Shown: piece after piece, positions 7,290 through 20,420 of the stretch
Position numbering within the stretch: the first letter of the stretch is position 1
How the letters are laid out: every line of letters begins with the position of its first letter
From: a virus
DNA length: 37,546 bases
Strand: one strand, 5' to 3'
Virus record (IMG/VR): IMGVR_UViG_3300021425_000082
Coordinates: 1-37,546 of that record
Notes under the pieces: generated by a model
Told to the model about the DNA's origin: nothing
Seen by the model: the letters and a program-made list of their open reading frames with translations, nothing else
Databases searched by the model: none
Made by a program: the position numbers and the translations under genes

Positions 7290-8564
7290 ATGTCTGCTAA
7301 TCATGAAAGACTATTTAGTTTAGACGAAGCGAACAAACTCTTTAAGATTAAGTATGAGAAGCTTTCTGAGAATGTATATAACTCTGCTAACGTCTTATTG
7401 GGTCGAGTAAAAAAATCCTATGATTTCGTAGGTGAAAAAATTCAAATTACTATTCCATCATCTTTTAGTGGTGGTGTTGGTTCAGGTTCTTTACCAAAAG
7501 CTAACACAGCTCTATACCAAAGAGCAGAGCTACAAGCTAAAAAGATGTATGCAGTAGTTGAAATTGATAGAGAGACAATTAAAGCTGCTCTAAAAGACGA
7601 AGGATCTTTCGTAAGAGCTACTAAAGAAGTAGTTAAGAAAGGTGTTGAATCTTTTATGAGAAATATGTCTCGTACATTGTTTAATGATGGATCTGGTAAA
7701 CTAGGTGATATTGACGCTGCTGATCCTCTAACAGCTACATCAGTTTTAAAAATTGATGGTATGAAAGAAGCAAACTTTGAAGAAAGAGATCTTGTAGATA
7801 TTTACGCTACAGACGGATCTTTAATTGCTGGTAAAAAAGAGATTCTAGAAGTAGATCCTGAAGCTGAAACCATTAAGTTAGCTGAGACTGTGAATGAGGT
7901 TACTGGGGTAGCATTTGACGTATCTGCTGCGGCTACTGCGTTAGGTAAAACACTAGGATCAGTAGTAATGCAAGGTTCTAAGGATAATGATCCTCAAGGT
8001 CTTAAAGGTGTAATTAAGAGTGAAGCTGAGCTAGCTGCTGACAGCGTTACTGATCTTTATACTGTTCCAGTAGGAAGACGATGGAGTGCTGGGCATTCTG
8101 AAAATGCTGCATCTGCTGCGATTTCTACAGATATGTTGAACAAAGTAATGTTGAACATTAAGAAGAAATGTGGTAAGTCACCTAACCTTATTGTTTGTTC
8201 ATTTAAGCAATATGAAAAAATTCTTAATCTTTTAGAAGATCAAAAGAGATATAGTGTTAATACTAGAGCTGGCTTAAAGTCAAAATCTGGTGCTGACATC
8301 TCTTTTAGCGGTGTAGAATTTATGTCGATTGATGGACCTATTGGGATTTTTCCTGAGAGATTTATCGAAGACGACAGAATCTACCTTCTAAATGATTCAC
8401 ACATCCACATCAAGCACAGACCAGACTTCGGTTGGTTTGATGATGACGGAACTGTTTTCCTACGTAAGCCAAGTGCTGATGCGTATGAAGCACGTTACGG
8501 TGGATACTTACAAACGTATATTAACCCATGTTTTCATGGTGTAATTCACAGCTTGTCAGTATAA
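7290..8564 (+). CDS. Major capsid protein
   Basis: This 424-residue protein follows the scaffold gene after a strong AAAGGAG ribosome site. Its size and pattern (helical N-terminus, a basic KKSYDFVGEKIQITIP strand, then mixed alpha/beta) fit an HK97-fold coat protein such as those of P22-like phages. It is followed by an unusually strong terminator/attenuator, typical for the most highly expressed head gene. Codons look more uniform than in its neighbours. There is no N-terminal delta domain fused to it, in keeping with a separate scaffold. Confidence 0.85.
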   Translation: MSANHERLFSLDEANKLFKIKYEKLSENVYNSANVLLGRVKKSYDFVGEKIQITIPSSFSGGVGSGSLPKANTALYQRAELQAKKMYAVVEIDRETIKAALKDEGSFVRATKEVVKKGVESFMRNMSRTLFNDGSGKLGDIDAADPLTATSVLKIDGMKEANFEERDLVDIYATDGSLIAGKKEILEVDPEAETIKLAETVNEVTGVAFDVSAAATALGKTLGSVVMQGSKDNDPQGLKGVIKSEAELAADSVTDLYTVPVGRRWSAGHSENAASAAISTDMLNKVMLNIKKKCGKSPNLIVCSFKQYEKILNLLEDQKRYSVNTRAGLKSKSGADISFSGVEFMSIDGPIGIFPERFIEDDRIYLLNDSHIHIKHRPDFGWFDDDGTVFLRKPSADAYEARYGGYLQTYINPCFHGVIHSLSV

Positions 8565-8646: not shown

Positions 8647-8952
8647 ATGGTTTCATGTGATTTTATAGATTTAACAGATGGGCAATGGAAGACAATGCCT
8701 CAAAATGCTGTAAATATCATGATAGAAGCCCATGGAACATTCGGAGTTGTACATATAGAAACGAGTCATTCTCAAGACCTTCTACATGATATAGCTAATT
8801 TACATCCAGGAGGAAGTGGTAATAAAGACCATGTAGTATTACAACCTGGAGTTAATTTTATAATGAATTGCGTAAGAATACAGCCAGCTACGTTGCCAGT
8901 ATTTTTACCGGGAGAATATATAAGAATTTATTTTAATAGAGTTAAATTATAG
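8647..8952 (+). CDS. Small beta-sandwich head/surface protein (paralogue 1)
   Basis: This 101-residue beta-rich protein is the first gene after the capsid attenuator. FIDLTDGQWKTMPQNAVNIM followed by IETSHSQDL aligns with KDLTDGSEITLPSNARSLVL and MQTSHDGVLW of the 114-residue protein at 13706, so they are paralogues. Position after the coat gene suggests a capsid decoration or fibre-base protein. AGGA at 8639-8642 precedes the ATG. No enzyme motif is seen. Confidence 0.6.
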   Translation: MVSCDFIDLTDGQWKTMPQNAVNIMIEAHGTFGVVHIETSHSQDLLHDIANLHPGGSGNKDHVVLQPGVNFIMNCVRIQPATLPVFLPGEYIRIYFNRVKL

Positions 8953-8961
8953 GAATAATAT

Positions 8962-11900
8962 ATGTCATCAAACGACCATAAAAAATTTAAAACGGAGGCT
9001 ACTCAAAAGACGAGTACCGACACTGAAGTTATATCTGATACAGTATTATTACCTCCGTACTCTACTGACCACGTACTAACTGTTACGGCTCCTAGTTCTA
9101 CAGCAGGACTAACGGGACAAGTAGACGTTGAGTTAGAAATGAGTCCAGACGGAGAAAACTGGTGTCCGGCTCAAACTGAAACAATAACAGCAGGTTCAGG
9201 AGGAACAGCTACAGGCGGAGTTAGTGCTGAAGATGCTAATTTAAACGCAGTATCTACTCTCCCAGATCCAAATAGTGCAACCCCTACATACACATATACA
9301 GGTAACAAGTTTGCCTTAGGATCTAAGTCTTATGACGACTCTGGAAACGAACTTGACATAAATACTCCTAACGATGGTACTAAAGACTTTATGCATCAAT
9401 TGATGTCTAAAGATAAACCATTCAATTACTCATTATGGTTAAAAACAAAGACAGATACACAGACGTTTGCGGATGATTATACACCCGTAATTTTTAGACA
9501 TGGTGGAAAAGATAAATTTACAAATTTAAAGACTATTGAATTAACAGATAGTGGAACGCAAAATTTGTGTAGTATTCTATCTACTGACGAAGCTGTTATG
9601 TTAAATAATCAAAATACAGAACCTAATTTAAAAGTAGGTTCTTCAGTAACTCATTTTAATCCTTTTAGATTATCCACAGAATCAAGTTCAGATACTATGA
9701 CTAATATGAACTGGGATGGCGGTATTGGAGGCGCCGGTGTTGTTGTAAGTACAAACATGAGAGTTACTTCTGGAAATAATGTAGATCCAGTAGGACTGAG
9801 TAGTACTAATGTTACCAGATATAGAAGACAATTAATGAGAATAGACGTAGGAACTACATCTTCTAATATTACAGGATCTATAGTATGGTTCCTGTGGAGA
9901 AGTACCTCTTCTGGTTTTTTTATGTCTGTTAATTATTTAGACAGTAATGAAAATATAATTTTATATAATGATGCAAGAGTGGGAGGTTCGTATCAGATAG
10001 ATCAACTGGCAAATTGGTTTCACATTAGTCAGTATTTTGTAACAAGAACAGACAGCCATCAACACCAGTACTATTCGAGAACATCTTATAATGGCGGTAG
10101 TCCAGAAGTCGGTTTCGGTGCTTCAAATGTAGGAATGGCAGATATTTTTTCAGGAGCTACTATTCAAAATATTACTTTTGGAGGACCTTACAGAGTTTGG
10201 GACTCAGCTTTAGGGGCAAACAATTTTGCCGACGCTGGAGGATATTGGGAAGCAGATGTAGAATTTAATAAACTTTGTTTTTATACAGGGTTTTTAAATA
10301 TGAATAATAACTGGCAAACTATATATAATAATAGAAAAAATCCTACAGCTTTTACTTCTAGTAACATGACGTTAAAAGCAGTATATGATATGGTAGGTCC
10401 TTCGGATGATACTACTAATAAAATATTTAAAGATATTGTAGAACCTAGTTCAGGCAGACAACTTATATTAAATAGCTCTAATGCCGATGTAACTATATCG
10501 GATATATCTAATGAACCTTTTGTATATGAGCAAACAGTAAATCAGTTTGAAAGTATATTTGACACAACTAAATCTTCTTCAATATCAGGCTGGTTTAAAA
10601 CTACTATCGGTGCTACAGGAACCCTATTTAGTAATACAGGCGGAGCCGCAGCTACAGGATTAAAAGTAGATGTATCAGGTTCAGGTATAACTGCTTCCTA
10701 TTTAAGTTCTTCTCAAACGACGTTTGTATCAGGTAACTTTAATGATGGAGAATGGCATCACATAGTTATGGCTCTATCCCCAGGAAGTCAGCTAATAGTG
10801 GTAGATAATACTTTTTCTCAAGCAAGTAACCACAACACATTAGTAAATGATGATTTAAGAGGAGATAACGGATTTACCTTATTAGGGGATGGACAGAGTA
10901 ATGCTAACGCTACGAGTCCTTCTCTTACAGATGCATCTAAATTACAAGCATATTTATCTAACTGGAGCTTACACTCAGAAGAGTTAAATGTAGCGGCTAT
11001 TTCTCAATTATACAGTAACGGACATGTTCGTAATATAAAGAATCTACCTGCTATAGATAGTAATGAAATTAAAGCTTGGTGGAAGTTATCAGACACTACT
11101 ACGCCTGAGGAAGATTCAGCAGGATCTAATGATTTAACATATAATGAACCTGTTATTGAGGGTGCAAACACTTCTTATATATCTAGTCCTTCATCTACAG
11201 CAACAGGAGTACCTTACGCAGTAGAACTAGTAGGAGAGCAATCATGGTTTCCTAGCTTAAATACAGGCGGAGCAAATACAATGCCTGGACTTCACGATGA
11301 TTGGACCATTTCTTTTTGGTGGCGACCGCAGTTTGCGAGTGCTACTAGCACCATCTGGGATCTTACATGTGATTTACCTAATTTTGCTGGAGCAGGATTC
11401 TCTCTCAGACAGGTATCAAATGGCAGCAGATACATTATGGCAAGGTATCCAGATCCTAATTCCACATCAATTCCGCGAGCTACACGCTGGAGGCAAGCTT
11501 CAATTAATAATCTTACTAATGGAGTGTGGTATTATACAACTATTGTAAAAGTAGCTGGCTTTAGCTCATCTTCTTCTGCTTTTCCTTTTCAGGTATATAT
11601 TAATGGCAATGGAGCTAATATAGGTATAGATACGAGTAATCAGAACACTGCTAATCCTCCTTCTACACTATTTGATAATGTAGCGGTTGGGAGTTCAGGA
11701 TTATTTAAAGCTAATCACAGTTTGCAGCGACTAGGAGATATTATTACGTTTAATAGAGCTTTAACAGCAACAGAAGTAAATGATTTATATGCCAATCATA
11801 ATAATCCTAATCAAGTAACAGCTATAGCAAATAATATAGATGCTCATTTTAGAATGGGAGATGGACCAGATGATATTTTAGGTACTAATTATAGAGTCTA

Positions 11901-13263
11901 TGATGTTACAGACACAACACCTACTACATATCTTCAAAATAGTGATACGACATTGTACCCTAGTCCTTTAACTAGTTATGCTACATCAGATACTCCTTAC
12001 GAGTCAGGTACAGCAAGTAGTACAATCGCTTTAAGCACCTACGTATCCGATGCAGACGGAGCTACTAAGATCGTAGAAGAAGATCAATACGGTTCTGGTA
12101 TCACCATGTCTTTAACAAAAAGATTTAACACTACAAATAATGAGTGGACAAATGTACATACTAATGAAACATGTGTATGTCTATCTTTTAATGGTTTTGA
12201 GGATCAGGCAGAACACTTTGCAATATATACTCATGATACAATAGATGTAGCAGATAACGCTTGGCACAACCTAGCACTGTCTTTTTCCGGTAGAGAGGGA
12301 GGAGCTACAACTAGTACAACAAACTTTTCTTTTGACACTACTTCACATAATTTTGTATTAAGTATTGACGGCTCTCCTATTACAGGAGCGCACTTCGTAG
12401 GCGGATTAGCTGGGATTCCTACAGGTAAATCATTTACTGCTCAAGAAAGATACTTAAAGTGGGACAACAATAGTGAAGAAGACTATATACCACATGCGCA
12501 ATTAAATTCAAATATTTTTGAATCTATTAACCAAACTAATCAATTACATGAGCCTGTAAAGGATAGAGATTATAAGACAGGTTTTGTAGGATATGCTGAT
12601 GAGTCTTCTTTTCATAGCGAATCTTGGTTTACAGACTCCTCGTTTAATCCTCAAGTAGGTTTTAACGATCAAAAAGTCAAAACCTTATATGGAAGCACAG
12701 GTACTACATTGTCAAATAGAGGTGCTGGATCAAGTTTTCCAGCAGGAACTCCTTATCCATTAAGAAGACCTTCTGTTATAGGTTCTTCTACATCTACAGG
12801 TAATCAGTACATAGATCCCGATAGATACAATGCGTCTACAAATGCTGATGGGGGATTAGAGGCATGGTGGAGATGGGGAGATACTACAGGAGATTGTTCT
12901 ATAAATATTAATGACGCAATTGGATATGAAAGCGGAAGCACAGACACTAGAAGATCCTTAAAGTTAAATGGTACATATAATTCTGAAGAAAATTCAGTAA
13001 CAGGCTTACTTGAAGATTTATTTCCTTTAACCTCTAGCGATAGCATATACGTTCCTGAGGCGGCTGCTTCTAGTGGAGGAGGAGGCATCTCTTTAGTAAA
13101 TGTAATAATTGAAAATGTACAAGCAGGTGTATGTAATTTAAAAAACTTGACATCTCCTATTTTACAGTATATAAGAGTAAAGTTCACAAATTCAGGAGAA
13201 GCGCAGCTAGGAGAAGGTAAGCTAGAGGCTACTGTGCATTACAGAAAAAGGAGAGAAAGATAA
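8962..13263 (+). CDS. Giant surface protein: beta-sandwich with LamG-repeat insertion
   Basis: At 1,433 residues this is the largest protein in the window. Residues 1-80 (with ELEMSPDGENW at 58-67) and residues 1375-1433 (with SPILQYIRVKF) together match the two halves of the 144-residue protein encoded next. About 1,290 residues are inserted between them, bounded by Gly-rich linkers (GSGGTATGG and SSGGGG). The insert contains repeated concanavalin/laminin-G-like units (ISGWFKTT, DGEWHHIVMALS, WTISFWWRP, DNAWHNLALSFS) separated by recurring AWWKLSD, AHFRMGD and AWWRWGD motifs at about 705, 961 and 1301. LamG folds usually bind glycans or proteins, so receptor binding or capsid display is likely. 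The stop overlaps the next ATG (TAATG). Confidence 0.75.
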   Translation: MSSNDHKKFKTEATQKTSTDTEVISDTVLLPPYSTDHVLTVTAPSSTAGLTGQVDVELEMSPDGENWCPAQTETITAGSGGTATGGVSAEDANLNAVSTLPDPNSATPTYTYTGNKFALGSKSYDDSGNELDINTPNDGTKDFMHQLMSKDKPFNYSLWLKTKTDTQTFADDYTPVIFRHGGKDKFTNLKTIELTDSGTQNLCSILSTDEAVMLNNQNTEPNLKVGSSVTHFNPFRLSTESSSDTMTNMNWDGGIGGAGVVVSTNMRVTSGNNVDPVGLSSTNVTRYRRQLMRIDVGTTSSNITGSIVWFLWRSTSSGFFMSVNYLDSNENIILYNDARVGGSYQIDQLANWFHISQYFVTRTDSHQHQYYSRTSYNGGSPEVGFGASNVGMADIFSGATIQNITFGGPYRVWDSALGANNFADAGGYWEADVEFNKLCFYTGFLNMNNNWQTIYNNRKNPTAFTSSNMTLKAVYDMVGPSDDTTNKIFKDIVEPSSGRQLILNSSNADVTISDISNEPFVYEQTVNQFESIFDTTKSSSISGWFKTTIGATGTLFSNTGGAAATGLKVDVSGSGITASYLSSSQTTFVSGNFNDGEWHHIVMALSPGSQLIVVDNTFSQASNHNTLVNDDLRGDNGFTLLGDGQSNANATSPSLTDASKLQAYLSNWSLHSEELNVAAISQLYSNGHVRNIKNLPAIDSNEIKAWWKLSDTTTPEEDSAGSNDLTYNEPVIEGANTSYISSPSSTATGVPYAVELVGEQSWFPSLNTGGANTMPGLHDDWTISFWWRPQFASATSTIWDLTCDLPNFAGAGFSLRQVSNGSRYIMARYPDPNSTSIPRATRWRQASINNLTNGVWYYTTIVKVAGFSSSSSAFPFQVYINGNGANIGIDTSNQNTANPPSTLFDNVAVGSSGLFKANHSLQRLGDIITFNRALTATEVNDLYANHNNPNQVTAIANNIDAHFRMGDGPDDILGTNYRVYDVTDTTPTTYLQNSDTTLYPSPLTSYATSDTPYESGTASSTIALSTYVSDADGATKIVEEDQYGSGITMSLTKRFNTTNNEWTNVHTNETCVCLSFNGFEDQAEHFAIYTHDTIDVADNAWHNLALSFSGREGGATTSTTNFSFDTTSHNFVLSIDGSPITGAHFVGGLAGIPTGKSFTAQERYLKWDNNSEEDYIPHAQLNSNIFESINQTNQLHEPVKDRDYKTGFVGYADESSFHSESWFTDSSFNPQVGFNDQKVKTLYGSTGTTLSNRGAGSSFPAGTPYPLRRPSVIGSSTSTGNQYIDPDRYNASTNADGGLEAWWRWGDTTGDCSININDAIGYESGSTDTRRSLKLNGTYNSEENSVTGLLEDLFPLTSSDSIYVPEAAASSGGGGISLVNVIIENVQAGVCNLKNLTSPILQYIRVKFTNSGEAQLGEGKLEATVHYRKRRER

Positions 13264-13697
13264 TGGCATCTGCTCATCACATATCATTTTTAAACAGTGT
13301 ACAGCTAACAAATGAAAATTTAAGAGAATTACTATTTGATGCAGCTACAGGGGATCCTGTCGCATCTAATTTTGACGCAGTTAATCCAGGAAATGTAGTA
13401 GCCGTAACTGCTACTCAAACACTTTCTAGTAAGTCTATAGATCACATACTTGTAGGAAATTGTGTAGGATGTACACTAAATGTAACTTTACAGATAAGCC
13501 CTGACGGAGTAAATTGGACAGATTGTACCTTAGCTAATGGAGATACTTGCCAAGTTGACTGTAGCCTTACAGCCGGAGATTGTCAGGCTAGTATAATAGA
13601 TGTTCCATTACTGCAATACGTTAGAATAAAAGTATTACCTAGTGCTACAGGGACAGATAAAATTTGTACTGTAAATTTACACTTTACACTTAATTAG
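13263..13697 (+). CDS. Small beta-sandwich surface protein (paralogue without insertion)
   Basis: This 144-residue beta-rich protein contains SIDHILVG, TLQISPDGVNW and PLLQYVRIKV. These correspond to STDHVLTV, ELEMSPDGENW and PILQYIRVKF in the giant preceding protein. It therefore shows what the host domain looks like without the LamG insert. It is Cys-rich in the middle (GNCVGC, CTLANGDTCQVDC, DCQ). Start and previous stop share TAATG. A virion decoration or adaptor role is inferred from position. No enzyme motifs are visible. Confidence 0.65.
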   Translation: MASAHHISFLNSVQLTNENLRELLFDAATGDPVASNFDAVNPGNVVAVTATQTLSSKSIDHILVGNCVGCTLNVTLQISPDGVNWTDCTLANGDTCQVDCSLTAGDCQASIIDVPLLQYVRIKVLPSATGTDKICTVNLHFTLN

Positions 13698-13705
13698 GAG
13701 ATATA

Positions 13706-14050
13706 ATGATAGCAACAGAGATTAAAGATTTAACAGACGGTAGTGAAATAACGCTACCCAGTAATGCTAGAAGCCTAGTTTTAGAGGTACAAGTTCACGC
13801 AAATCCTCTTGCTACAATCAAAATGCAGACTAGTCATGATGGAGTTTTATGGCACAATGCTATGACTGCTTTAGTAGGCGACGCGGCTGTACCTAATAAG
13901 ATACTATCTTTTGATGATTCATCAGAAAATTTATTACAAAAAGTTAGGATCTTAATAGAATTAGATGACGGACAGGGCAATATTTCTTCTGTTACCGCTG
14001 TACAAGCCGGTATAGCCAGTATTAAACTATTTTTTGGAAGGAGTAAGTAA
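13706..14050 (+). CDS. Small beta-sandwich surface protein (paralogue 3)
   Basis: This 114-residue protein has the DLTDG...LPSNA and QTSHDGVLWH signatures shared with the 101-residue protein at 8647, and a more distant SxDGxxW match to the giant protein and its neighbour. It is likely another copy of a small fibre-base or head-decoration domain. GGAG seven bases before the ATG is the ribosome site. The stop overlaps the fibre gene start as TAATG. Confidence 0.6.
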   Translation: MIATEIKDLTDGSEITLPSNARSLVLEVQVHANPLATIKMQTSHDGVLWHNAMTALVGDAAVPNKILSFDDSSENLLQKVRILIELDDGQGNISSVTAVQAGIASIKLFFGRSK

Positions 14051-15696
14051 TGCCTTTAATTACGTTAGGTGATGACACCAAATTAAAACTAAAGATTCCT
14101 TCTAAAGGGGACGTTGATTGGTCTGACGACTTTAAAACACAATTTGCTCAAAAAATTGTTGATCACGATCACACAGGCTTAGACGGAAAAGGAGCCAAAC
14201 TTACAGGAGACTCCTTAGCTGACGGAGCTATTAATAGATCTTCTCTACTAGGAATTAATTTAGAAGATCTTCCAAATGTCACTGATGCCCCTAGTAATGG
14301 TCATACATTAGTATATAACGAAGGTCAGGGAAGATGGAACTCTCAACCACCTACATCGGATATTGAGATAGCAGATACTACAGTCTCTATTCCTAATGGT
14401 GGATATGCGTCTGGTATTGTTGTACTTACATCTGATATAGATAATGGAACAAGCGTACCTACGAATGAAAGATACGTTTTAAATTTTATTAATAACGGTA
14501 GTGTGAATATAACTGATTACTCAGGTGTCACATTTATTATTGAAGATACAGCTCCAGCAGGTAAAACAATAAAGTTTCCTGCTTTAATTAGCTGTACAAT
14601 CGTATCTAACGTAGATGTTGAATTTCATGGTACTGTAGAAAATTGTAAAGTGCTAGTAAGAAGACCTAATGGTACAGCAAAAACAAGTTTACTAAGTAAT
14701 GGTAAGTTTGAAGGAAGTGTTTGTGATTTAGATGAGCTAGTATCGGCTGGTCACGCTAGTTCGCTTACTAGGTTTGTACAAAGTAGTATTACAGCAGATA
14801 TTCTAGAAACTCAAATGACAGGAACAGATGTTGAAAATATTGAAAAAACTAATTTAAAAGTAGGCAGCTTATTAAATAATAGTGCCTTGTCTACAGGAGC
14901 TTTAAGATTAAACTTAACAGATAAATCATCATTAGATGTAAAATTAATTGCAAGCAGTATGGTTATTGACGGAACAACGGTTAATTTATCTGTGGATTCT
15001 AAGTTGACCACGTTATCTGAAATAGGTAGCACTAATAGTCAAATTGTAAAATCTTGGGATGACACAGCTAACAGATGGCAATACCTAGTTTCGCCATCAG
15101 GAATAAATAAAGTAATTACAGCAGACACTAATGGTGAACCTGTTGAGTTAAGCGTATCAGACGGACATGTTATAAAAGGTAGTTCTTCAGGACTTGTATC
15201 TCAAGCTAATACTCTTTTAAATTTGAATGATGTGAATAGTGGTGCTCCTAGTACAAATCAATTTTTATACTATACAGGATCTCAATGGGATGGAACTACT
15301 ATACTACAAGTACCAAGTGGAGGATCTACAGGACAAATATTAACTAAAACCAGCTCAGGCTATGCCTGGCAAACTAAAACGGAGAAATCATTCGTGAAAA
15401 TAAAACAAACAGTAGCATGGAATAATGACAGCACTCAAAATATTACAATAGGTACTAATGAGTACGCAGAAGTAACTATTACAAAACTTAGTGGAGTAAC
15501 GGGATCTCTTACTACGGATAATGGAGGAGAAGGTCCTGTACACGCAAAATTTGGACCAGGGACATTAAGTATAAATCGCATTAATGCTATCGTAACCCTA
15601 AGTCACACACAAGGAGGAACGTATGATCTTTTTGGTTCTACAAGCGCTTCCGCTGCGGATGTTAGTTTCCACATAGTAGTATTCCAAAACTCATAG
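14050..15696 (+). CDS. Fibre protein (tail or head fibre)
   Basis: This 548-residue protein is rich in Ser, Thr, Asn, Gly and short beta strands. An N-terminal DHDHTGLDGKGAKLTGDSL then DGAIN resembles the attachment part of many phage fibres. Repeated modules (NGHTLVYNEGQGRWNSQ, NQFLYYTGSQWDG, GQILTKTSSGYAWQ) are typical fibre shaft repeats. The last ~110 residues (from about KSFVKIKQTVAW) form a separate beta-rich tip that may bind the receptor. It ends the surface-protein block. Whether it sits on tail or capsid cannot be told. Confidence 0.7.
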   Translation: MPLITLGDDTKLKLKIPSKGDVDWSDDFKTQFAQKIVDHDHTGLDGKGAKLTGDSLADGAINRSSLLGINLEDLPNVTDAPSNGHTLVYNEGQGRWNSQPPTSDIEIADTTVSIPNGGYASGIVVLTSDIDNGTSVPTNERYVLNFINNGSVNITDYSGVTFIIEDTAPAGKTIKFPALISCTIVSNVDVEFHGTVENCKVLVRRPNGTAKTSLLSNGKFEGSVCDLDELVSAGHASSLTRFVQSSITADILETQMTGTDVENIEKTNLKVGSLLNNSALSTGALRLNLTDKSSLDVKLIASSMVIDGTTVNLSVDSKLTTLSEIGSTNSQIVKSWDDTANRWQYLVSPSGINKVITADTNGEPVELSVSDGHVIKGSSSGLVSQANTLLNLNDVNSGAPSTNQFLYYTGSQWDGTTILQVPSGGSTGQILTKTSSGYAWQTKTEKSFVKIKQTVAWNNDSTQNITIGTNEYAEVTITKLSGVTGSLTTDNGGEGPVHAKFGPGTLSINRINAIVTLSHTQGGTYDLFGSTSASAADVSFHIVVFQNS

Positions 15697-16359: not shown

Positions 16360-17307
16360 ATGAGATCAGTAACTCGCTTAATAGAGCAAATACGAAGACA
16401 GACTGAGAATGATGAAGTATCAGATTTTGTAGGTATTCAGGATGAGGAATTTATCCAGTACCTAAACGATGCTCAGTATAATCTTCAAGCACAAATAGTG
16501 CATCAACATCCTCGTGTATTTATTGAGGAAGCAATTATACAAACTGTCTCGGGACAAGAGCGGTATGATCTACCTAGTAATTGTTTCTTAGGTAATAAGG
16601 TCCATAACGTAGAATACTCTGCCTCAGGTAATGATGATGATTACTACACGCTTAGTCAGACAACTATGAAAAGTAGGGCATCAGGAGTAGATGCGGATCC
16701 TTCTCAATATATTAGAGTAGCTGGTCAGATACTTCTAACACCTCAGCCAACTTCAGGCGGAAAGATTCGGATAAACTATGTAAAAAGATTGCGTGAGTTA
16801 GATAAGAGAAAAGCCAAAGTATTAACAGCATTAAGTGAGACTGACATATCTTCTGATTTTACCATAACTTTAGACAATGCTAACTTTGGCACTAATGCTG
16901 ATGATATTGCTTTACACGACTACATCTGCATTGTAGATAAAGAAGGTAGAAACGTAGTAAAAAATATTGAAATAGATGTAGATGCTGCTGATAGTATATT
17001 GTCTAGTCAAATAAAATGTAAAGCACATACCTTAGATGCTGAGGATATGTCGAGTATTCCAGCAGGGTCTTATATTGTTGGAGGTAAAGATACTACTAGT
17101 CATAGTGAGCTAGGTATTGAGGTAGAGCGTTATCTTATAGCTTATTGTGCATGGAAAATACTAAAGAGAGATTCTAGTGTAGATAGTAATGAAGCCTTGC
17201 AAGAGCTTACTCTTATGGCTCAAGAGATTGTAAAATCTTACGCTCTAATTACTGATGATATACAACTTATTCCCGATATTAATAGTCGAGATGATTGGAG
17301 TATTTAA
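16360..17307 (+). CDS. Head-tail adaptor protein (gp4-like)
   Basis: This 315-residue protein starts with a helical bundle (SVTRLIEQIRRQTEND, EEFIQYLNDAQYNLQ) and then beta segments including SGQERYDLPSNCF and QILLTPQPTSGGKIRINYVK. This is the pattern of podovirus adaptor proteins that bind under the portal (P22 gp4 / T7 gp11 class). Next comes the beta-propeller tail hub, as in those phages. AAGGA precedes the ATG and the stop overlaps the next start (TAATG). A long helical C-terminal part (from about residue 245) may contact the portal. Confidence 0.7.
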   Translation: MRSVTRLIEQIRRQTENDEVSDFVGIQDEEFIQYLNDAQYNLQAQIVHQHPRVFIEEAIIQTVSGQERYDLPSNCFLGNKVHNVEYSASGNDDDYYTLSQTTMKSRASGVDADPSQYIRVAGQILLTPQPTSGGKIRINYVKRLRELDKRKAKVLTALSETDISSDFTITLDNANFGTNADDIALHDYICIVDKEGRNVVKNIEIDVDAADSILSSQIKCKAHTLDAEDMSSIPAGSYIVGGKDTTSHSELGIEVERYLIAYCAWKILKRDSSVDSNEALQELTLMAQEIVKSYALITDDIQLIPDINSRDDWSI

Positions 17308-20300
17308 TGGGTGTAGACCATAGACTGATTAGAAATACTGAAAATTTTAAAGGAATAGATAAGCGTTCCTCCGATCTTGCTCGTACTAGAGAGTTTGCTA
17401 CGGATATAGATAATGCTATATATAGAAAGACGGGAGCGATAAGTAAAAGAAAAGGATTTAAAGTAAACCTAAATCAGTTTGACAATCACTTTGGAGGGTT
17501 TACATTTAGAAAAACTAATCCTTTAAATGGCAGTACAACAGATGAATTTTTAGCTGTTTCTACCAAGTTACAACGTCTAGTAGATGAAGATTTTAAAATA
17601 TCTTATGAAGGATCTTCTGACATATTTGTATCCATATTTGCCGAAAGTTCTAGTAATTTTAAATTTCAAATAAAAGATCAAGATGTACTAATAATGGATC
17701 AAAACTTAGGTACAGGATTTAGCTCATCGGATTTAAGTTTAAGTAGTTTAAGAACACTTATAAATGATGTAAAAATACCTGTAGCTACTATAGATGCTGT
17801 AGTAACTCCTGTAAGCCCTACTCAATTTGATTACACTATTCCAGTAGAAAACGTAAGTAAAGTACAATCTTTATACGTAGGTTCTTTACTTAAAATTTCA
17901 GGAGAAACTACTCAATTAGAGGTAACTTCTTATACTGAAATAACAGCTCCTAATAATGATGCTCTAGTTGTTTCCTATAGAATAACTTTAGAAGGAGCTT
18001 CTTCTGCATTAAATAATACTGTAGGATCTGTTGAGTTAGTGGATTATCATGATCTAACTGCATCTTTTACTAATACAGAATTAGATGGATATAGAGCAGC
18101 TTTATTGACTGCTGTTAAAGATGTTAAAATAAATAATTTACTATCAGGTGGAACAAATCTAAAAGCTAAGGATTGGGAAGATATAGATAACGGAGACACT
18201 AGCACTATTAATACATTTGATTGGAAAGTAAACTCTAGTGATACAGATAGAGTATTTTCTTCTCAAGATGTAGAAAATGCTACATTTGCACAACTAAATA
18301 ATGTTTTATATATAAGTAATGGGTATGATTACATAATGAAATATGATGGACAAAGAGTGTATAGAGCAGGTTTACCAGCTTTAGATAATGATACAGCTAC
18401 AGAGTATTTTGAATGTAATCCTCAGTCAAGCAATAACCCTATTCATAGTAACCAAAACTCAGAAGATAAAACTTTTGAGTATCGTTTTGTATTAGAATAT
18501 ACAGATGCTATAGGTAACATAATTAGTAGTCAGCCTTCTAAACCAATAATAAAAAGAGTACCCTCAGGCAACAATGTTGCTATTACATGGGATTCTCAGG
18601 TAGATTTATTAAATCCTTTTTTAGCTGGAAGAGATCTTACAGGAGTATTTGATAGCACACATCCTTTACATGGAAATTTAGAAGATTTAAATTCAGGAAA
18701 TAGACCTACTGCTACATCTTTAGCAGATAATTTAAAAAAGTATAGAGAAGAAAAAAGATTGAGGGTTAAGATATATAGATCTTTAGGGTATAATCAAGGT
18801 AGTATTGATGATCAAGTTGTAGGGCAATACTATCAGATAGCAGACGTGCCTTATGATGAAGATTCTTTTACAGATCGTTCAGTAGATCCAGAGGACACAG
18901 TCGTAACTGATTTTGATATAAATACTTTACTAGCTTATGCAGAACCAGTAAAAAGACAAGACCCTCCACCGAAGGGAAGGTACATAACAGGATTTAAAAA
19001 CTGTTTAGTATCTGCTGGAAACATAGCTAATGTAAACAATGTGCAATATTCGCTACCTAAGAATACCTCTACAGGTGAAATAGGTTCTGAATATTTTCCA
19101 GAAGATGACAATGCCATTGTAGTAGATTCTTTATTTGGAGATAGGGTAAACGCCATAGCTCCTCTAAGAGATCTACTATATATTTTCCACAAAAATAGTA
19201 TTCACGTTTTAGGTGGTAACATAAACCTACTAGAGTTACCCGTAGTAGACTTACTAACTAAAGAAGGTGGTGTAGGATGCCTAAGCCAGGGCTCTATACA
19301 AGAATTTAGAAATCAGTTAATATTCTTATCTGAAGAAGGTGTATATACTATTGATTCCTCAAATGCTATTAGTGAGCTGTCTGCTCCTATAAAACCATTC
19401 TTTGACGATCTAGATTTAAAAGTTAAAAGATCAGTATCCTATAACTGGGTACGAGAAAATTTAATGATAATAAATATACCTAAAGAAAAAACTAGTGTTA
19501 CTTTAGATACTATTCAGAATATATCTATACTGCAAAATAGTACCCAAACTGATGTACCTACTTTATTAACTAGATCAAATAAAACATTTAAAATATTTGC
19601 TACTGATTTTCTTGCCTCTGCTAACGGTAAAGATGCTTCGTTTGAAATAACTACAGATGCTAATGGAGATATATTATTAGAGAATATATCAGTAGAGTTT
19701 CCAGGAGAAGCTTTTACTGCTAATGAAACTATTTATATAGATGATGACTTTTTAGGAGGATTTGCAGGGGCGGGTATTACATTAAATGTAGATTCTGTAA
19801 TTAATAGAGATAGCTCTGTATATACTTCAGGAGAAGAAGAATCATTAATTATAGTATATGATTACTTTAAAAATGCATGGTTAAAATGGACTAATGTGGA
19901 CATAACTGGGGGAGTAGCTCTATATGACGAGAAAGTTACTTTTCTAAGTAGAACTAGAAACGGTAGTTATTTAAAAATTATGTCTGAGTCTGATACTACC
20001 TATGATTACGCAGACCACAATGATGCTATTGATTTTAGATACGAAACTAACTGGGAATCTCTTAATGAGCCTACTATACCTAAAAAGTTTCTACGTTTAA
20101 AACTGTATAGCTTTGATACTGACGGATCATTTGAAAGTCCTGGTTTCTCTGTTAATGTATTTGTACAGAAAAATTACGTACCTTTTGACTTAGGCAGTTT
20201 TATAATGGACTTTGGGCAGACTTTAGGGTGGGCAGAAGAACCTTGGGGGGAGTTTAAATGGGGTTCTAGTGCATTGAATTTCCTAAAAAGTAAATTAGCT

Positions 20301-20420
20301 CCGGGTAAAACAAAGTCATTAAAGTTAAGTTTTCAAAACAATACTTTAAATGAGAATGTATTAATAACTAATTATGAGATGGAGATTGCATCTCCGTATG
20401 GAATGGAGATTAAAGATTAA
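17307..20420 (+). CDS. Tail hub/nozzle beta-propeller protein
   Basis: This 1,037-residue protein resembles T7 gp12 / P22 gp10-type tail hub proteins. The N-terminus (FKGIDKRSSDLARTREFATD, then DNAIYRKTGAISKRKGFK) matches the usual opening of that class. The centre (AQLNNVLYISNGYDYIMKYD, RDLLYIFHKNSIHVLGG, GCLSQGSIQEFRNQLIFLSE) shows propeller blade strands. I chose ATG 17307 because it forms TAATG with the preceding stop. A TTG at 17295 adds only four residues and lacks a ribosome site. It probably caps the adaptor and forms the channel for DNA ejection. It is longer than the T7 protein. Confidence 0.75.
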   Translation: MGVDHRLIRNTENFKGIDKRSSDLARTREFATDIDNAIYRKTGAISKRKGFKVNLNQFDNHFGGFTFRKTNPLNGSTTDEFLAVSTKLQRLVDEDFKISYEGSSDIFVSIFAESSSNFKFQIKDQDVLIMDQNLGTGFSSSDLSLSSLRTLINDVKIPVATIDAVVTPVSPTQFDYTIPVENVSKVQSLYVGSLLKISGETTQLEVTSYTEITAPNNDALVVSYRITLEGASSALNNTVGSVELVDYHDLTASFTNTELDGYRAALLTAVKDVKINNLLSGGTNLKAKDWEDIDNGDTSTINTFDWKVNSSDTDRVFSSQDVENATFAQLNNVLYISNGYDYIMKYDGQRVYRAGLPALDNDTATEYFECNPQSSNNPIHSNQNSEDKTFEYRFVLEYTDAIGNIISSQPSKPIIKRVPSGNNVAITWDSQVDLLNPFLAGRDLTGVFDSTHPLHGNLEDLNSGNRPTATSLADNLKKYREEKRLRVKIYRSLGYNQGSIDDQVVGQYYQIADVPYDEDSFTDRSVDPEDTVVTDFDINTLLAYAEPVKRQDPPPKGRYITGFKNCLVSAGNIANVNNVQYSLPKNTSTGEIGSEYFPEDDNAIVVDSLFGDRVNAIAPLRDLLYIFHKNSIHVLGGNINLLELPVVDLLTKEGGVGCLSQGSIQEFRNQLIFLSEEGVYTIDSSNAISELSAPIKPFFDDLDLKVKRSVSYNWVRENLMIINIPKEKTSVTLDTIQNISILQNSTQTDVPTLLTRSNKTFKIFATDFLASANGKDASFEITTDANGDILLENISVEFPGEAFTANETIYIDDDFLGGFAGAGITLNVDSVINRDSSVYTSGEEESLIIVYDYFKNAWLKWTNVDITGGVALYDEKVTFLSRTRNGSYLKIMSESDTTYDYADHNDAIDFRYETNWESLNEPTIPKKFLRLKLYSFDTDGSFESPGFSVNVFVQKNYVPFDLGSFIMDFGQTLGWAEEPWGEFKWGSSALNFLKSKLAPGKTKSLKLSFQNNTLNENVLITNYEMEIASPYGMEIKD

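Follow-up and report, generated by a model that had tools for sequence, protein, structure and literature searches.

The 1,433-aa protein encoded downstream of the major capsid gene in the window, by which we mean the whole 37,546-nucleotide stretch of viral DNA analyzed, is likely a Bbp16-family jelly-roll cement protein in which a loop was opened once to take up a laminin-G/ConA-like array, displayed on the capsid and probably binding glycans. The phage head is usually regarded as a container, recognition being assigned to the tail. In the present case, an entire clade of phages appears to have made a capsid cement protein the holder of a very large, fast-changing module.

Gene Order and Features of the Window

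The window is a contig of an uncultured virus belonging to a short-tailed and apparently marine phage group, the marine origin being judged from the kinds of loci recovered. Its virion block is of the podovirus type, with a protease, a large terminase, and the portal, major capsid, and adaptor proteins of the SU10 type. Six genes, encoding 101, 1,433, 144, 114, 548, and 160 aa in this order, lie between the capsid and adaptor genes. The small beta-sandwich domain that carries the insert is called the socket hereafter, and loci are termed filled or empty according to the presence of an insert. The features are as follows.

7290..8564, +, major capsid protein (SU10-type, HK97-like), the anchor of the slot; Pfam SU10_MCP E 1.7e-7, PHROG major head protein 5e-29
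8647..8952, +, 101-aa small protein, probably also related to the small beta-sandwich genes (slot-4 type); below the socket-profile threshold
8962..9219, +, N-terminal half of the socket, residues 1-86, with a Gly-rich linker at its end; insert-free HMM 21-80 matches residues 25-87, iE 2e-4, 25.0 bits
9220..13083, +, insert, residues 87-1374, about 1,287-1,290 aa; 0.6 bits against the socket profile, LamG matches, missing in distant orthologues
10558..10905, +, laminin-G domain inside the insert; PF13385 E 9.4e-7 (genome search), PF02210 E 1.9e-7
11293..11778, +, second laminin-G/ConA-like domain inside the insert; PF13385 E 1.9e-7 (genome search), E 1.4e-5 (piece alone)
13084..13263, +, C-terminal half of the socket, residues 1375-1433, plus stop; insert-free HMM 80-118 matches residues 1391-1431, 13.9 bits, above all 1,632 insert windows
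13263..13697, +, 144-aa insert-free tandem paralog of the socket; HMM E 8e-6, family hhalign against the spliced ends 99.6%, AF2 beta-sandwich with pLDDT 78
13706..14050, +, 114-aa further insert-free paralog; socket-profile match E<1e-3
14050..15696, +, 548-aa separate fibre-like protein, candidate tail fibre, with a conserved N-terminus and a variable remainder; N-terminal profile common to relatives
16360..17307, +, SU10-type adaptor protein; Pfam SU10_adaptor E 1.7e-12

The 548-aa fibre gene was considered as a homologue of SU10 gp12 and rejected, the match not being significant. A virion-type protein of 1,041 aa is encoded at 17295-20420 of the window; its C-terminal part has an amidase-like match (phrog_5107, E 1.7e-9), and it may be a tail protein that bears a cell-wall enzyme domain. 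Host assignment by means of bacterial and archaeal genomes was abandoned, as it yielded no more than two MAG contigs that carried capsid relatives (45-52%), and their binning was not trustworthy.

Two Socket Halves around a Large Insert

The ORF at 8962-13263 starts with ATG and encodes 1,433 aa with no internal stop, and the ORF at 13263-13697, which overlaps it by 1 nt, also starts with ATG and encodes 144 aa. Both ORFs lie where the earlier note had placed them, and all four motifs that it quoted were found: SPDGENW (residue 61) and PILQYIRVKF in the 1,433-aa protein, and SPDGVNW (residue 79) and PLLQYVRIKV in the 144-aa protein. The borders of the insert are Gly-rich, as had been noticed, with GSGGTATGG at about residues 78-86 and SSGGGG at about residues 1370-1375.

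With the window capsid protein as query, 80 related loci were gathered; a search with the N-terminal half of filled sockets gave almost no loci beyond these. In a group of distant relatives, with capsid identity of about 53%, the slot that follows the capsid gene and a small MLRS-type gene encodes a 110-121-aa protein, whereas in near relatives the same region encodes about 870-1,710 aa where complete, with inserts of about 720-1,570 aa. The insert is up to ten times the size of the cement protein that it splits. The comparison of related phages proposed in the earlier note accordingly gave empty sockets in distant relatives, filled ones in near relatives, and close pairs differing only in the insert. 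No cultured relative of either the 1,433-aa or the 144-aa protein was found among 50,697 phage records.

An insert-free profile built from 14 small proteins of distant relatives in the same gene slot, with no filled ones included, matched the 1,433-aa protein in two colinear pieces meeting at profile position 80, and L032 was split much alike (profile 5-72 and 84-118). The spliced ends scored 36.4 bits against this profile, with 25.0 bits for the N-terminal half alone and 13.9 bits for the C-terminal half alone, compared with 8.4 for the best of 1,632 same-length insert windows and 6.2 for the best of 2,200 shuffled C-terminal ends. In hhalign, the profile of the spliced ends aligned end to end with that of the 144-aa-type proteins at a probability of 99.6%, and with the small insert-free proteins at 98.7%. 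The ends of the 1,433-aa protein are thus the two halves of a beta-sandwich of about 120 residues, of which the 144-aa gene is an insert-free copy, as the earlier note had read from the motifs. At the level of sequence, these data confirm the nested insertion of a large module in a small beta-sandwich domain.

A structure model of the 144-aa protein by AF2 was a beta-sandwich with the expected strand order (pLDDT 78), in which the insertion point corresponds to the turn near residues 90-94. By strand order, the window insert would sit between strands F and G. Foldseek related the 144-aa model to generic CBM, discoidin, and XepA-like jelly rolls, none of them at E<1e-3 in PDB. The only relative folded, of 1,074 aa, gave a model that was poor overall (pLDDT 52, pTM 0.38), with pLDDT of 64-86 and 68-80 at its ends, and its terminal strands follow the order of the 144-aa protein.

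The small MLRS-type gene in the interval between capsid and socket was tried as a member of the socket family and rejected (hhalign 0.1% against the small-protein and cement profiles). Most loci have this gene between the capsid and cement genes (e.g., L082:3229-3558), and the window and L004 lack it; its product weakly matches a lectin PHROG (phrog_1910, E 0.0035).

Insert-Free Paralogs

At least three proteins of the window (1,433, 144, and 114 aa) belong to the small beta-sandwich family postulated in the earlier note; the 101-aa product of the gene at 8647 scored below the socket-profile threshold. The adjoining unfilled copy that had been pointed out is the 144-aa protein, an insert-free paralog of the socket (HMM E 8e-6). 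Such a paralog occurs directly downstream in all 12 filled loci of sufficient length (11 with a single ORF, and L029), while 18 empty-socket loci have only one member at E<1e-3 and the deep-branching L079 has more than one. Since the filled loci form one clade, the link between insert and paralog represents one evolutionary association and not 12 independent ones.

Similarity of the Socket to Capsid Cement Proteins

The earlier note had suggested a head or fibre-base domain. Because the socket is related to the cement protein of BPP-1 and epsilon15, the head half of this suggestion is favored. Among PDB sequences, the socket profile matched the BPP-1 cementing protein best (E 0.0088); a further capsid decoration protein was matched at E 0.099. 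Against 44 proteins of SU10 and BPP-1, the insert-free HMM matched Bbp16 with E 2.4e-8, the next best being 0.7. In the reverse search, with an HMM of 12 Bbp16 homologues from cultured phages, the 15 best of 1,307 ORFs were insert-free slot-2 proteins. The 1,433-aa protein itself matched the Bbp16-family HMM weakly (composite 6.0 bits), and its link to Bbp16 is indirect, running through the insert-free orthologues (hhalign 98.7%). In BPP-1 (Bbp16) and epsilon15 (gp8), the capsid gene is followed immediately by the cement gene, and the socket is among the first three genes downstream of the capsid gene in the window and its relatives. Among the matches listed of 85 phage records with a Bbp16 relative, all aligned as one piece and no filled version appeared.

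Cement proteins of the Bbp16 type are eight-strand jelly rolls that form dimers at the two-fold positions of the capsid. In BPP-1, the cement jelly roll lies and dimerizes on the capsid surface, and it contacts the capsid through its N-terminus, its C-terminus, and one loop between early strands, for which the paper uses the name B-C once and C-D elsewhere (PMC3863775).

Content of the Insert

A LamG-repeat array across the insert had been claimed in the earlier note, and this held in part. Two Pfam laminin-G domains are clear, at residues ~533-648 and ~778-939, and a third at ~1059-1157 is weak; Pfam gave no domain in residues ~88-530 or ~1190-1374 of the window protein. The PF02210 match (E 1.9e-7) exceeds its cut-off, and the two PF13385 matches, at E ~1e-6 to 1e-7, are below the curated cut-off. 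In L013, PF13385 (LamG_3) matched the insert at E 2e-28 in three strong stretches. Foldseek of the L042 model, which is of low overall confidence, matched neurexin and laminin LG tandems; given the weakness of the model, this fold match is no more than supportive. Judged from these domain matches, the insert is a predicted array of carbohydrate-binding modules, and a receptor-binding role is suggested by the LamG fold together with the pattern of exchange described below.

Single Origin, Exchange of Inserts, and a Second Loop

In the capsid-protein tree, all 35 filled-socket loci formed one clade (100/98), and one origin of the filling therefore suffices. The insert differs between close relatives that keep one socket, in agreement with the exchangeable inserts foreseen in the earlier note. 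L008 and L012 have 96.8% identity over 4.4 kb, and their slot-2 regions have 92.7% identity in the initial 578 nt (residues 1-187); beyond residue 187, no similarity was found between them, even at the protein level. Between the window and L004, identity is 83-89% across the capsid genes, and the two long genes share only two matching stretches of about 60-70 nt, one of which is the socket core. In L036 and L039, both ends are common and the middle is different. Taken together, these alignments indicate that inserts are exchanged between related phages.

A second, different piece of about 320 aa was found in L009 and L010, which have one capsid type, in an earlier loop upstream of the SPDGENW strand and of the usual insert; L011, as far as it was read, has the same kind of piece. 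Its positions are as follows.

L009:9217-11448, L010:5534-8740, L011:5240-5758, second-loop module, ~320 aa, unrelated to the usual insert and with no Pfam match

By strand order, this second insertion loop would be D-E. The D-E and F-G loops lie at the same end of a standard jelly roll, and by analogy they would do so in these proteins.

Proposed Mechanism and Alternative Explanations

We propose that the ancestor of the clade underwent a single opening of an inter-strand loop (F-G, by strand order), which came to hold a large array. The two terminal pieces would fold jointly into one jelly roll docking on the major capsid protein, so that the array would project from the surface of the head. 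In this position, the array probably binds glycans of host cells or particles, and it would make contact more likely before the separate tail fibres come into play. The plain cementing role may be retained by the tandem 144-aa copy, in which case only part of the sites would need the bulky version and occupancy of the shell would be mixed. Recombination would swap the array, with the socket and the first ~190 residues staying intact. A cement protein split by a swappable lectin-like insert implies that the head probably carries an exchangeable sticky surface. Whether lectin arrays borne on the capsid determine adsorption or niche in the sea thereby becomes a testable question. Evolution has also shown that a loop in a structurally solved cement family can carry more than 1,000 residues, which is useful for the design of capsid display.

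More tentatively, and with confidence falling slightly short of an even balance, the system may be a naturally evolved platform for capsid display, in which two loops at the same end (D-E and F-G) take very large modules, a duplicated plain copy shares the shell, and modules swap between near-identical phages.

It is also conceivable, though unlikely, that the array is displayed on the capsid as a spacer, a shield, a decoy, or a binder of other virions or minerals instead of as an adhesin. LamG folds also mediate protein-protein contacts, and large size with rapid replacement would fit surface variation from any cause; however, adhesion and carbohydrate-binding modules dominate this fold class, and replacement of the outer part on a conserved base is typical of host-recognition modules.

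A location in the tail or neck is the main rival to capsid placement, because the PHROG family common to Bbp16 and the empty sockets, phrog_9522, is labeled major tail protein. The socket would then serve as the base of a fibre or decorate the tail, and the LamG array would be a tail adhesin resembling evolved Dit or major tail proteins. The genes lie between capsid and adaptor and adjoin a fibre-like gene, and tails carry adhesins more commonly. On the other hand, the specific solved relative is a capsid cement protein, the slot is that of the cement gene in BPP-1 and epsilon15, and the fibre-like gene that follows is a separate one; the socket core matched cement proteins and no Dit family. 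We therefore regard the tail reading as rather improbable. That the ends resemble the small proteins by chance, or as two separate domains with common beta-sandwich motifs, is highly improbable, since the split is colinear at one profile position, the C-terminal end surpasses 1,632 windows, hhalign runs end to end, and the same slot is empty in relatives, even though the S-x-D-G-x-x-W motif occurs widely (in DUF6385, CBM, and discoidin-type proteins) and the C-terminal match by itself was weak and not distinctive against the controls in L013, L014, and L025.

Comparison with Known Systems

The closest parallel to the cement protein proposed here is given by BPP-1 Bbp16 and epsilon15 gp8 (PDB 3j4u), with which it shares the slot directly after the capsid gene and mutual profile matches. 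Proteins of the Bbp16/gp8 family are similar in length to the empty sockets (126-157 aa compared with 110-121 aa), and the cultured homologues examined are in one piece and insert-free, whereas here the protein is split by about 720-1,570 aa and has an insert-free paralog beside it.

In lactococcal siphophages, evolved Dit, major tail, and neck-passage proteins have carbohydrate-binding modules inside or on structural proteins (PMC6669499). They resemble the present case in bearing a module of carbohydrate-binding type in a conserved virion protein, with extended and plain versions among related phages. They differ in being siphophage tail or neck proteins with BppA-type modules, whereas ours is a cement-type protein of a short-tailed phage, of about 95-185 kDa with the insert, with two loops used and an empty copy retained.

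Several capsid decoration proteins, namely T4 Hoc, T5 pb10, SPP1 gp12, and phi29 gp8.5, contribute to cell binding (review PMC7602432). Like the protein described here, they are capsid-surface proteins proposed as cell or glycan binders, but their adhesion is ascribed to their own domains, several of them Ig-like, and not to a module nested in the loop of a jelly-roll cement protein. No density for a decoration protein is visible in SU10, which is the nearest among phages with a solved virion (PMC9509320). The Ig-like gp10 of SU10 is likewise encoded after an SU10-type capsid gene, but it was rejected as a socket homologue, as it did not match the socket profiles, and it is absent from the SU10 head map (PMC9509320). 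A limited search of the open-licence literature found no precedent for a lectin nested in a cement protein.

Variant Loci

In L029 (L029:11282-13458), the socket is distributed over separate genes that are tightly packed or overlapping, with ORFs of 568 aa (N-terminal half and LamG), 97 aa (12990-13283), and 61 aa (C-terminal half of the socket). This split suggests either a two-chain assembly or a recently interrupted gene. An intron or known RNA element was considered as its cause and rejected, as there was no Rfam match in the window, L029, L042, or L010.

Within the empty-socket group, an unrelated protein of 579-594 aa (MTIQQNFQQRPK...) replaces the cement protein in L063:3712-5457, L064:11682-13466, L065:5073-6002, and L078:11734-13473, the copy in L065 being cut off. 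In L055:13185-14822 and L056:9948-11585, a cement-like domain is located C-terminally in a 545-aa protein, which represents a fusion and not nesting. Finally, L104:11693-13553, on a contig assigned by binning to an archaeal MAG, encodes an empty cement protein and, two genes further on, a separate FN3 and LamG protein (LamG_3 E 2e-18), so that the same kind of module lies near the socket, outside rather than inside it.
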